DNA of 40,833 nt from Chloroflexota bacterium (GTDB lineage Bacteria; Chloroflexota; Dormibacteria; Dormibacterales; Dormibacteraceae): positions 1 to 40,833 of the forward strand of contig VBFO01000088.1 in the NCBI GenBank assembly GCA_005881025.1, in the 5' to 3' direction. This document shows, piece after piece, positions 24,167-28,845 of this stretch. Numbering within the stretch: the first letter of the stretch is position 1; every line of letters starts with the position of its first letter. Position numbers and translations under genes: made by a program. The notes below the pieces were generated by a model that worked only from the letters and a program-made list of their open reading frames with translations, did not search any database and was not told the DNA's origin.

Positions 24167-25153
24167 ATGGTCGAGCGATTGCTGCTCCTGGTCAACCGAA
24201 GCGCCGGCACCGGATACGGTCCCGAGCTCGTCGGGCCGCTCTTGCGCGAGCTGCGGGATGGGGCCGGCTGGCCGGAGGAGCTCGAAACCGCAGTGGTGGA
24301 GAGCCACCCTGCCGCGAGGACCGCAGCCAGGCGCTTCCTGGCTGAGTCACACAGGCCCGCGGTGATCATCGCCGGCGGCGGTGGCGGCACGTTGAGGGCG
24401 GTCGTAGAGGGCGCGTGCGACGGCGCCGACCAGCTGCCTCAGCCACGGCAGGTGCAGATCGGTGCCCTGCGCATGGGCTCAGGCAATGTGGTGGCGAGAC
24501 GCTTCGGAGTTCCAGCTGAACCGATGGCTGCGATGCGAGACCTCGCGACGTCGCTGCGGGACGGTCGCACCGCCTCCTGTGGAGTCATTCGCTGCCGGTT
24601 CGGCACGGCGACCGGGGGCCAGGACGTGCGGCATGCGGTGACAATGTGCGGCCTCGGTCAGTTCGGGAGGACTTCCGGCGACCTGGTCAGGTGGCACCGC
24701 CGCATCGCGGCGCGACGGAGGGCGATGACCTCGCGGCTCGGGATCGAGCGGGTGAACAACCTGGAGTACATGCTGTCCGCCGCTTACCGCCTCGGAGCGG
24801 CAACTCTCCTGCCCCGCCGTTGCGAGCTGGTCGAGGTGGCCCTGGGAGGGCGGGTTGAGAGCTATCGCCTGCTCGCGGGCGCTGTCATGAACCTCGGCGT
24901 GGCCGGCATCCCTTTCGACCCTCACGTCACGATCTCCGATGCCGCAGCCGGCATCCTGCTCCTGCCGCGGGGCGGCCGCCTGCGCTCGAGGCGCCTCCTG
25001 CCCGGCGAGCAGCTCCGCCTTCGGCTGCTCGACCGCCCCTCGGTCGAGTTCTTCCTGGACGAAGACCCTGAGGTAGCTCATGGATGGCTCAGCATCGAGG
25101 CCGCAGGAACCCTGGCGTTCGTACCTGGTTCGGCCTACCGGGAGGCAGCATGA
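24167..25153 (+). CDS. diacylglycerol/sphingosine-kinase-fold protein with altered GGDGT motif
   Basis: This 328-aa protein is of typical DagK/YegS-like lipid kinase length. The N-terminus LLLVNRSAGTG matches the family's 'NP.sG' block and GALRMGSGNVVARRFG matches the 'lG.GNd.ar' block. The catalytic/nucleotide motif GGDGT is replaced by an all-glycine run (AGGGGGTLR, about residues 69-76), so the Asp normally present is missing. A C-terminal beta-sandwich with LDRPSVEFFLDEDPE follows; in active kinases this part has 'DGE'. It may therefore bind lipid or nucleotide without normal kinase activity. It is coupled to the next gene by an ATGA overlap, which suggests a shared lipid-related pathway. 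Confidence 0.75.
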   Translation: MVERLLLLVNRSAGTGYGPELVGPLLRELRDGAGWPEELETAVVESHPAARTAARRFLAESHRPAVIIAGGGGGTLRAVVEGACDGADQLPQPRQVQIGALRMGSGNVVARRFGVPAEPMAAMRDLATSLRDGRTASCGVIRCRFGTATGGQDVRHAVTMCGLGQFGRTSGDLVRWHRRIAARRRAMTSRLGIERVNNLEYMLSAAYRLGAATLLPRRCELVEVALGGRVESYRLLAGAVMNLGVAGIPFDPHVTISDAAAGILLLPRGGRLRSRRLLPGEQLRLRLLDRPSVEFFLDEDPEVAHGWLSIEAAGTLAFVPGSAYREAA

Positions 25154-26874
25154 CGCTGCGGGTGGCTGTACTCGGCATCGATGGCAGCGGGAAGAGCACA
25201 CTCGCGCGCACCCTGCCGATGGTCCTCGCGGCGGAGTTGAACCTGGTGGCAGGCGCTGCCGGCGACGAGTTCCTGGTGTTCGGCACAGAGCAGGATCACC
25301 TTGCGCCGGGCTTTCACCCCGAGGGGTTCCCGCTGGCAGCGAGATTGGCTCACGTTTTTCGGAGCCTCGCCAAGCGCTTTCGCGATGGCGCCGCTTACCC
25401 CTACTTGAAGCTCGCCCATCTCATGTTCCAGGACGACGCTGCGGTCTCGATCGGCAGCAGGTACGGGTGCGACGTGGTCGTGAGCGACTGCAACCTGATC
25501 CTCTCCGCGATGGGCCGTGCCGGCAACTACCGGCGAGGCGCGACCCATGGGGGTGCACCGCGCGCCCGCTCGTCGGTCGATGACCTGCGCGCGGTGTTCG
25601 CCTTTCTGATCGAGGGCGAAGCCCTTCCCGAAGAGAGCGCGCGCAGGCTGCCATCGATGTCGGCCGCCGGGGCCGTCAGCGGCGCCGCTCGGATGCTCGG
25701 GTTCGATGGCGTCTGGATCCCAGACGTGGTGCTGTTCCTGGACGTCGACCCCGAGATCGCCCTCAGCCGGATCAGAGGTCGCGGCGCGAGGGTGGACCCC
25801 CACGAGAACCTTGCTGACATGCAGCGCGCGCGGGAGACGTACCTCAAAGCGCTGCGTGCCCTCCAGACATATCAAGGCGCGACCTGCAGTCATGTCATCG
25901 ATGCCACCGACGCCACGCCGGCCGAGGTCCTGGCAAAGTCGGTGGCGGCGCTGCGGCCGCACGTCGAAGCGCAGCGCACCAGCGCATCCGGTTCGGTGCT
26001 GGGAACCGCCGAGGGCGGCCGCCGCAGCTTTCTCAACTCGCGGTACCTGGTGCGGTACCTCGCAGGTCGCTGGTTCCAGGGCGCGTGGAGGGAGCCTCTG
26101 TTCTTGCTTGGCCAGATGGGCAGGCAGCTGCTTCGGGAGGGCTATTCCGCCGGCGTCATGCGCACGATCTATGACCAGGGTGAATCGGCCCACAGCCTGG
26201 CCGATCGCGTCTTTCTGGACTATCCACTGCACCGAGCTGTGTACGACCGGCTTCACATCCTGCAGAACGTGATCGAGACCGAGCTCGAGTCGCGGCTCGC
26301 GCGCGGCTCGAGGGTTCGCATCTTCACCGCGCCCAGCGGTTTCGCCTATGACCTCTTCGGCCCGCTCGAAGCGATCGCGGCACACAAGCCGGAGCTCATG
26401 CGCAACGTCGAGCTGGTCGCTGCGGATCTCGATCCGCATAGCCTCCTGGCCGGCGAGGTGGAAAGCCGCGCCAAACGACTGCGACTTGGGCTTTTCCGGT
26501 TCGTGGTCGGCGACATCACTGCACGGGACTTGCAGCAGGAGCTGGCCGCGGGTGGTCCGTACGACATCGCCCTGTTCGTCGGCCTGTCGAGCTGGCTGCC
26601 GAAGCCGCACTCGTTGCGGCATCTGCGCTGGCTGCGCGCCAACCTCACACCGGATGGCGTGCTGTTCTCGGACTGCTTCTCGGCCGCGACTTACTCGCTC
26701 GGCGGTCGCTACGCCGGTTACCGGGCCCAGTACTACTCGCCCGCGCTGTATCGGTGCCTGCTCGATTACGCAGGCTTCGACGGCGGATCGGCGTGCACCA
26801 GCTCAGGGCGTGATCGCCTCAACCATGTGCTGGTCACTCGCCGAAAGGCCGGCGGAATACCGGTCGGGGCCTAG
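25150..26874 (+). CDS. fusion: thymidylate-kinase-like P-loop domain plus SAM methyltransferase domain
   Basis: This 574-aa protein starts at ATG within ATGA, overlapping the upstream stop. Residues 1-~285 resemble thymidylate kinase-type nucleoside monophosphate kinases: P-loop GIDGSGKST at 9-17, the lid-adjacent VLFLDVDPEIALSRIRGRG at about 192-210, and YLKALRALQTY. The usual 'DR' after strand 3 appears as VVSDCN. Residues ~330-574 form a class I methyltransferase-like domain: VRIFTAPSGFAYDLF at about 388, VAADLDPHSL as the acidic end of strand 2, IALFVGLSSWLPKP, and LTPDGVLFSDCF. I do not know this fusion. With a DAG-kinase-like protein encoded just upstream, phosphorylation plus methylation of a lipid or isoprenoid is one possibility; it is only an inference. 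Confidence 0.78.
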   Translation: MTLRVAVLGIDGSGKSTLARTLPMVLAAELNLVAGAAGDEFLVFGTEQDHLAPGFHPEGFPLAARLAHVFRSLAKRFRDGAAYPYLKLAHLMFQDDAAVSIGSRYGCDVVVSDCNLILSAMGRAGNYRRGATHGGAPRARSSVDDLRAVFAFLIEGEALPEESARRLPSMSAAGAVSGAARMLGFDGVWIPDVVLFLDVDPEIALSRIRGRGARVDPHENLADMQRARETYLKALRALQTYQGATCSHVIDATDATPAEVLAKSVAALRPHVEAQRTSASGSVLGTAEGGRRSFLNSRYLVRYLAGRWFQGAWREPLFLLGQMGRQLLREGYSAGVMRTIYDQGESAHSLADRVFLDYPLHRAVYDRLHILQNVIETELESRLARGSRVRIFTAPSGFAYDLFGPLEAIAAHKPELMRNVELVAADLDPHSLLAGEVESRAKRLRLGLFRFVVGDITARDLQQELAAGGPYDIALFVGLSSWLPKPHSLRHLRWLRANLTPDGVLFSDCFSAATYSLGGRYAGYRAQYYSPALYRCLLDYAGFDGGSACTSSGRDRLNHVLVTRRKAGGIPVGA

Positions 26875-27255: not shown

Positions 27256-28845
27256 TCAGCGGTCTTGCAGGCAGGCCCTTCCAGTGCATGCGCCTGACAG
27301 CCACTGCTGCATCTGGTCGGAGAGCTGGCCCAAAGGTGCTCCGCGGGCGAGCACCACCGTATACCCCTTGGAGCACGCGACCCCGTATCCCCCGGCGAGC
27401 GAGTCCTGGACGACACGGCGGAGCGAGTCATCGGGTGAGTTGACACCGCCTGCTGTGGAGACGTCGATCGCGATGTAGTCGGTCTTGCTGTAGGTCGTGA
27501 CCTCGTAGATCTTCGCGCGGCTGGTGAGGTGCGGCACCAACGGATCGGTGGCCGCGACGCTCGCGCCGGCGGGAATCACATCAAGACACTCCTGTATCTG
27601 CTGCGCAGTGCTGTCGGACACGTAGGTCGTGAGCTCGCCAAGCGAGTTGACCACTCCGAAGCTCAGGATCCCACTGGTGGCGAGTGCCGCCGCCGGCAGA
27701 AAGATGGTCGTGACGGAGACAAAGCGCCCGCGGCTCCACGCCTTGAGACGAGCGGCTCCGTCGATCGCTGCGAAGGCAAGGATTGGAGCCGGCAGCATCG
27801 AGTACTGGAAGTGGAATGACCACAGGTTGCTGGACGACGACCAGAACCGCTCGAGGAAGCTCGGGATCGCGATCAGCAGGAGCGGCGAGAGCAGTGGAAG
27901 CAGGAGCCAGTTCGCGAGCGTACCCGCCCCAACGCGCAGCTTCTGCATCGGGGTGGCGAGCAGCTCGAGGCTCTTGATCGGGTGCTCGAGCAGGTACAGG
28001 ACCGCGCTTGAAGGTCCGTTACCCAGTCCCTCGTAAGTCCAGTGCAGGTAGCTGGATCCGCTGAACGCAGGCATCACGTAATCGAGCAGCAAGATGAACC
28101 AAGCACCGTTGAGGATCATCAGCGCGGCTCCGAGCAACGCTCTTCGCTGAACGACCGCGATGTAGAAGCCGAGGGCAATGATCGTCAGCGCGACGTCCTC
28201 GCGGGTCAACATCGCCGCCGCGACTGCTGCCCAGAGGAGCCGTCGCTGGCTATTGACTGCCGCGTACAGAGCGGTCGAGATGGCCGGCACGGCGAAGACG
28301 ACGTGGTGGAAGTCGAAAACCGCACCGGCAAGCACGCCCCAGAAGAGGAGGTACGCGCCCTGGAAGGCGAGCCCTGCGATGCTGCCGAGGCGCTGTGCGC
28401 CCCAGAGGTAGATGGGAATTCCGGCGACGGCCAGCAGGATGCCCTGCGCCACCAGCAGCACTCCTGCGGAGTCCCAGAAGAACCGGAACGGCCCGAGCAC
28501 CATGAGGATCGGGTGAAAGTGATCGCCCAGCAGGTTGGGGATTCCCAGCACCGTGTTGGGGATGATCTGGAGCCGGCTGTAGCCCCAGACCGTCTGATCC
28601 TGGATGCCGAGGTCGAAGCCGTTGGCTGCGAAGTGGTTGTAGCGGAAAAGCGAGATCGTGGAGAACCCGGCCGCCGCGGAGATCGTCATTGCGGCAGCCG
28701 CAGCCTGGGCCCAGGTCAGGCGCCATGGAAGCGCGATTCGCAGCGCAGGCGCGCGCCCGGGCAGTACGGCGATGCCTGGGGAGGCAACCACCTCCGGTTC
28801 GGCGACGGCGACCGGCGGATCCTGAACGGTCACGGACTGCGCCAC
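27256..28845 (-). CDS. DUF2079 polytopic membrane protein
   Basis: This 529-aa protein has about 12-13 hydrophobic helices. DUF2079 hallmarks are visible: FDLGIQDQTVWGYS at about residue 78, GDHFHPILMVLGPF at about 107, VFDFHHVVFAVP, and MLTREDVALTI. Members are GT-C-like membrane proteins, suspected glycosyltransferases using lipid-linked sugars; no enzyme activity is firmly known to me. The C-terminal soluble part (about 420-529) has two paired cysteines near the end. The N-terminal 30 residues are a Pro/Val-rich cytosolic tail. The GTG start at 28845 has neither a clear ribosome site nor a TAnnnT element. Confidence 0.88.
   Translation of the reverse strand: MAQSVTVQDPPVAVAEPEVVASPGIAVLPGRAPALRIALPWRLTWAQAAAAAMTISAAAGFSTISLFRYNHFAANGFDLGIQDQTVWGYSRLQIIPNTVLGIPNLLGDHFHPILMVLGPFRFFWDSAGVLLVAQGILLAVAGIPIYLWGAQRLGSIAGLAFQGAYLLFWGVLAGAVFDFHHVVFAVPAISTALYAAVNSQRRLLWAAVAAAMLTREDVALTIIALGFYIAVVQRRALLGAALMILNGAWFILLLDYVMPAFSGSSYLHWTYEGLGNGPSSAVLYLLEHPIKSLELLATPMQKLRVGAGTLANWLLLPLLSPLLLIAIPSFLERFWSSSSNLWSFHFQYSMLPAPILAFAAIDGAARLKAWSRGRFVSVTTIFLPAAALATSGILSFGVVNSLGELTTYVSDSTAQQIQECLDVIPAGASVAATDPLVPHLTSRAKIYEVTTYSKTDYIAIDVSTAGGVNSPDDSLRRVVQDSLAGGYGVACSKGYTVVLARGAPLGQLSDQMQQWLSGACTGRACLQDR

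Follow-up and report, generated by a model that had tools for sequence, protein, structure and literature searches.

A gene for a DAGK/SphK-fold protein and an overlapping gene in which a TMPK/dNK-like P-loop kinase is fused to a class I methyltransferase (MT) recur together in two bacterial phyla. We propose, with a probability of roughly 40%, that both genes belong to a single lipid-tailoring unit, in which the DAGK-like protein would bind the acceptor, the P-loop domain would transfer phosphate, and the MT domain would carry out O-methylation. The folds are known, and they occur here in an undescribed, conserved arrangement. The pair lies in the window (the whole 40,833-nucleotide stretch of DNA that was analyzed), which is contig C99 of a 2.6 Mb genome assembly of 172 contigs and 87% completeness. 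Its features are listed in Table 1.

Table 1. Positions of the gene pair and its sequence features in the window.
Feature	Position	Strand	Remark
DAGK/SphK-fold protein, 328 aa, first gene of the pair	24167..25153	+	
GGGGT, in place of the GGDGT catalytic loop of DAGK/SphK/NADK	24377..24391	+	
GGGAGG, candidate ribosome-binding site of the fusion, within the DAGK-like gene	25140..25145	+	from sequence
ATGA start/stop overlap (translational coupling)	25150..25153	+	ATG of fusion, TGA of DAGK-like gene
Kinase-methyltransferase fusion	25150..26874	+	574 aa, one open chain
TMPK/dNK-like P-loop kinase domain, residues 1-275	25150..25974	+	PF02223, Foldseek, hhalign
P-loop GIDGSGKST	25174..25200	+	G9, D11, and G14-K15-S16 kept in examined copies
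Altered DR motif D113-C114-N115	25486..25494	+	D-G-N/S in most homologs
LID region: R207, R211-G212, HEN (H218-E219-N220)	25768..25809	+	
Variable linker, residues 276-296	25975..26037	+	23% cross-phylum identity
Class I methyltransferase with helical N-extension, PhcB-like, residues 297-566	26038..26847	+	
APSGFAYDL, degenerate SAM motif I	26329..26355	+	only conservative changes in aligned copies

The fusion and its DAGK-fold partner

A preliminary description of this DNA had placed a P-loop kinase and a class I MT in one chain, and both halves of the 574-aa open reading frame indeed match these folds (PF02223 and Foldseek, respectively). The ATGA overlap with the DAGK-like gene that it had pointed out is present in the sequence (25150-25153), and the altered DR motif proved both real and conserved, with the Asp kept and the Arg lost. 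The same -4 nt overlap between the two genes was also found in G215, G320, G315, G328, and G330. In G315, the DAGK-like gene (L014, about 645-745) is open well upstream of the first ATG, GTG, or TTG after the stop, which points to a non-standard start codon or else to an error in the assembly.

The kinase half belongs to the TMPK/dNK superfamily, scoring 36.8 bits against PF02223 (Thymidylate_kin; E 4.1e-9, gathering score 27), and its 33.3 bits against TIGR00041 (dTMP kinase) lie below the NCBIfam cut-off of 83.25 bits. In Foldseek, the N-terminal half of the AlphaFold model of the fusion matches Giardia deoxyadenosine kinase (8puu) at E 8e-6; the AF2 models were built on 6-8 sequences, with a pLDDT of 73 for the fusion. 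The P-loop, the LID arginines, and the fold are common to the fusion kinase and the TMPK/dNK family (PF02223, PF01712), from which the fusion kinase differs in its lost DR Arg, its longer domain, its fusion to an MT or a PlsC-type acyltransferase, and its coexistence with a canonical tmk. Where the canonical tmk paralogs keep DRY or DRF, the fusion kinase lacks the DR(Y/F/H) motif of dTMP kinases: residues 112-115 read S-D-C-N in the window copy, and most copies carry Gly for the Arg while retaining D113. The Cys at position 114 (window 25489-25491) stands where the other copies compared carry Gly (D-G). Because a separate canonical tmk is present in 11 of the 13 carrier genomes tested, a role for the fusion as the housekeeping dTMP kinase was rejected; tmk is missing only from two 1.9 Mb assemblies, which are possibly incomplete.

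Pfam matches to the MT half are weak (Methyltransf_12, 6.5e-4 on the isolated half). Its AlphaFold model, in contrast to these profiles, matches many solved class I O-methyltransferases in Foldseek (E ~1e-6), consistent with the Rossmann-like SAM-binding fold of the class; the matched proteins are small-molecule O-methyltransferases, several of them from antibiotic pathways. SAM binding and methyl transfer are putative activities of a domain whose motif I is degenerate but conserved. PhcB-like MTs, the 3-hydroxy fatty acid methyl ester synthase family, share the helical N-extension of the MT half, and their profiles align with that half at hhalign 90-92%, although these profiles are shallow; another class I MT encoded in the window and unrelated to these, taken as a control, gave 6%. 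The alignment covers the GYxG...IYD / RAV..R..L helical N-extension and the SAM core. We treat this distant, possibly PhcB-like relationship as a lead, the link being weak and the profiles shallow. Unlike PhcB-like MTs, the MT half is fused to a kinase, has a degenerate motif I (APSGFAYD), and has no recognizable phcSRQ-like genes nearby. Membership of the YnbC methyltransferase family (PF12147) was considered and rejected: there was no Pfam match, and direct comparison with Escherichia coli YnbC was negative (hhalign 1.8%). PhcB-like MTs themselves align with the C-terminus of YnbC at hhalign 88.5%.

The upstream protein matches the whole fold and the N-terminal domain of the DAGK/SphK/YegS lipid kinase family (PF00781, DAGK_cat; 2.8e-13, 50 bits, gathering score 23.6) and falls below every NCBIfam lipid kinase cut-off. 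Its AF2 model (pLDDT 85) matches SphK1 and DgkB in Foldseek with E-values of 1e-15 to 1e-12; the top PDB sequence match of the DAGK alignment, a pentatricopeptide repeat protein, was discarded as a repeat artefact. Within the fusion architecture, both phyla conserve a 12-residue GGGGTLRAVVEG block and the FFLDEDP motif. A catalytic role has been proposed for GGDG in DAGKs and 6-phosphofructokinase (PMC8553519). In the window protein, GGGGT aligns directly with the GGDGT of DgkB (2qv7), so that the catalytic Asp of PF00781 is missing, a substitution absent from the preliminary description. The position of this Asp is occupied by Gly (n=11) or Ser (n=5) in 16/16 aligned partner proteins. In the canonical DAGK paralogs of these genomes, the motif could be located in 16 proteins, and all of them keep GGDG. 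This loss of the motif's Asp sets the partner apart from the DAGK/SphK/YegS family and speaks against reading the upstream gene as a working lipid kinase. The mitochondrial acylglycerol kinase AGK of TIM22 (PMC8708263) sets a precedent for a DAGK fold that has a structural function besides phosphorylating lipids, although AGK is a lipid kinase and belongs to another complex with another partner.

Distribution and linkage of the pair

The strongest evidence that the genes are linked is their co-presence: in a screen of the family of the source organism, the same 6 of 42 genomes (Chloroflexi MAGs) carry both the fusion and the DAGK-like gene, and none of the 42 carries only one of them. Across the whole class, the pair is present in 6/110 genomes. 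A scan of species genomes' contigs with one sequence found nothing, while a five-sequence alignment run against 84,980 species genomes picked up nine loci and added Verrucomicrobiales MAGs (45-49% identity over the full length). A search of 245 Verrucomicrobiales genomes yielded eight carriers, four of them new. The total stands at 15 genomes in two phyla, nine being Verrucomicrobiales MAGs, with all copies full-length except one cut by a contig end. This distribution is a lower bound, the collection scan having relied on short peptide patterns. In 14 of the 15 genomes, the gene immediately preceding the fusion is the DAGK-like one, and the fifteenth copy sits at a contig edge. The pairing that the preliminary description had wanted to see elsewhere thus recurs, and not by chance. 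For several of the Chloroflexi carriers, depth-labeled MAG names suggest a soil origin.

Between the phyla, identity amounts to 42% in the kinase domain, 54-55% in the MT region, and 23% in the linker. The two genes vary in step, their pairwise identities correlating at 0.97, a value that partly reflects shared ancestry. Both genes are under purifying selection, with dN/dS (Nei-Gojobori) of ~0.06-0.2 for the DAGK-like gene and the fusion, and 0.32 for the MT half of one pair. The neighboring genes differ between Chloroflexi and Verrucomicrobiales, and only the pair is common to both; a conserved wider operon was therefore rejected, and the pair appears to be an autonomous unit, which was probably moved between the two phyla by transfer. 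Searches of plasmids and of viral contigs, the latter pattern-limited, returned no match to the pair, and a mobile or phage element was rejected as an explanation within that scope.

Several further observations concern the surroundings of the pair. Downstream of it in the window, on the opposite strand, lies a gene for a DUF2079 membrane protein (27256-28845; PF09852, 3.5e-61); no such gene was noted next to the pair in the G215 neighborhood. The Verrucomicrobiales fusion has a C-terminal tail of ~60 aa that is absent in Chloroflexi (L021 9729-9869; also L022, L023, L024, and L028). The 3' end of the tail overlaps a convergent downstream gene by ~140 nt, and that gene looks by eye like a 2-phosphosulfolactate phosphatase.

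A sister cassette with an acyltransferase

A search of 388 Verrucomicrobiota genomes uncovered one further relative of the kinase, in G992 (E 1.8e-16). In that genome, the kinase follows a PlsC-type acyltransferase domain (PF01553, 4.7e-21) in one chain. The next gene, which the fused gene overlaps, is DAGK-like with GGSGT in the motif, and the gene before the fused one encodes a membrane homolog of E. coli YnbB (BLASTP E 2e-15). The MT-fused and PlsC-fused kinase domains align at hhalign 99.5% (E 1.5e-22), compared with 53.7% against canonical TMPK, and the DAGK-like proteins of the two architectures align at 97.9%. R207, R211, G212, H218, and E219 are invariant across both kinds of kinase, and the P-loop and D113 are likewise kept. 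Five more genomes with YnbB-like and PlsC-kinase genes bring the number to six, all from the Verrucomicrobiota search sets and none among the fusion carriers. The PlsC active-site motifs NHxxxxD and FPEGTR are kept in 6/6 PlsC-kinases, and an adjacent DAGK-like (GGSGT) gene occurs in five of the six genomes, the exception being at a contig edge. The third activity of this cassette is, as its sequence predicts, that of a lipid acyltransferase (PlsC). Since the same kinase and Asp-less DAGK-like core occurs in both architectures, the core is conserved while the third activity changes.

A search of 400 Chloroflexota genomes revealed no third architecture. Three phylum matches that had looked like related copies were discarded: those in G177 and G114 lie in ordinary tmk-like open reading frames, and that in G233 lies on the strand opposite longer ones.

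The signature of CDP-DAG synthase (CDS) is KDX5PGHGGX2DRXD (PMC7018664). All six YnbB-like proteins deviate from it, reading PGRGR or QGRGR and lacking DRxD, and the sister cassette may therefore not make CDP-lipids. These YnbB/CdsA-like proteins without the CDS signature (L120 3148-6414, L137 6768-10114, L138, L139, L140, and L141) stand in a conserved operon arrangement and are possibly another non-catalytic lipid-enzyme fold. The E. coli ynbABCD operon encodes a CDP-alcohol PT, a CDP-DG synthase, a hydrolase/methyltransferase, and a phosphatase. The sister cassette shares a YnbB homolog with it, but that homolog lacks the CDS signature and no YnbA, YnbC, or YnbD was found; of a complete ynbABCD-type lipid operon, only the YnbB homolog was detected, and only in the sister cassette. 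The PlsC-kinase/DAGK-like/YnbB-like cassette is the best evidence for a lipid pathway.

Proposed function and alternatives

The lipid assignment follows from the PlsC and YnbB-like context and from the DAGK fold. One kinase fold without its catalytic motif beside another with catalytic residues suggests that acceptor binding falls to the DAGK-like protein and phosphotransfer to the P-loop domain. The DAGK-like protein would bind a lipid or lipid-like acceptor without transferring phosphate itself, the P-loop domain of the fusion would act as the phosphotransferase on the bound acceptor, and the MT domain would then O-methylate the same molecule, at an oxygen of a phosphate, hydroxyl, or carboxyl group. 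The kinase and Asp-less DAGK-like core of the sister architecture would hand its product to the PlsC-type acyltransferase. What we infer is that the substrate is a lipid, that the P-loop domain is the catalyst, that the DAGK-like protein binds the acceptor, and that the steps run in this order; judged from sequence, the pair probably makes a modified lipid. The modification of a phospholipid or polyprenyl head group, raised as conceivable in the preliminary description, has gained independent support from the PlsC-kinase/DAGK-like/YnbB-like cassettes insofar as it concerns lipids, whereas no phospholipid or polyprenol acceptor was identified. No described pathway had been known for this trio, and the combination was not found in the open-access full-text literature, subscription journals being outside that search.

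Some points count against the unit model, among them the weakness of the PhcB-like link, the negative YnbC comparison, the CDS signature missing from the sister cassette, and the few sequences behind the AF2 models. Enzymes with TMPK/dNK folds usually have nucleosides or nucleotides as substrates, and another residue could make up for the Asp-to-Gly exchange, the fusion architecture having a conserved FFLDEDP. A wider generalization, to a class of two-component lipid kinases that would combine nucleotide-kinase-fold P-loop chemistry, a dead DAGK/SphK-fold acceptor subunit, and swappable MT or PlsC tailoring in the synthesis of an undescribed bacterial lipid, is doubtful.

Two active kinases might instead work in series, the DAGK-like protein being a lipid kinase that uses another acid (e.g., in FFLDEDP) and the fusion adding a second phosphate and a methyl group. 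Retention of the rest of the DAGK/SphK fold under purifying selection and the conserved DEDP near the C-terminus of the DAGK-like protein favor such a series, as does its GSGN, which we take to match SphK-type second motifs. However, Gly or Ser stands in for the GGDGT Asp in all aligned copies from the two architectures, and the PlsC architecture does not conserve the DEDP cluster; both observations make a series of two kinases unlikely.

Tailoring of a nucleoside or small metabolite is similarly unlikely. The kinase would then phosphorylate a soluble, nucleoside-like acceptor and the MT methylate it, with the DAGK-like protein as a regulatory or ligand-binding subunit; this accords with the kinase fold, whose nearest counterparts are deoxynucleoside kinase and TMPK, and with the small-molecule O-methyltransferases, several of antibiotic pathways, that the MT fold matches. 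The loss of the DR-motif Arg, the lack of a biosynthetic cluster around the pair, and the fusion of the sister kinase to PlsC next to a YnbB-like protein all speak against it.

The signals produced by PhcB of phcBSRQ are 3-hydroxy fatty acid methyl esters (PMC8578825), and by analogy the pair might synthesize a methylated, phosphorylated fatty-acyl signal. The MT half is most similar to PhcB-like MTs, but this relationship is remote. Relatives within the PhcB-like family sit in phcBSRQ-like MT-histidine kinase or MT-histidine kinase-response regulator arrangements, a context that is absent at the fusion locus, where no sensor kinase or regulator was recognized next to the pair; signal synthesis is thus improbable. 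Separately, clusters of an alpha/beta hydrolase, a PhcB-like MT, and a sensor histidine kinase were noticed in Verrucomicrobiota (L040 1-3537, L048 1-3501), and these resemble the phcBSRQ quorum-sensing operons of Ralstonia. A fortuitous fusion and neighborhood of functionally unrelated genes, for which the rarity of the pair in its class speaks and nothing further, is scarcely credible, being already contradicted by the pair's recurrence in two phyla, the joint occurrence of its genes in the family screen, purifying selection, and a second architecture with the same core.

The presence of a DAGK_cat domain in such genes should not lead to their annotation as lipid kinases. If the unit model is right, the pair would represent an unrecognized lipid-modifying system common to Chloroflexi and Verrucomicrobiales, and its lipid kinase fold would have lost all but a substrate-binding role alongside a nucleotide-kinase-fold enzyme. 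With only two genes, the pair offers a small and concrete target for the discovery of a new bacterial lipid.
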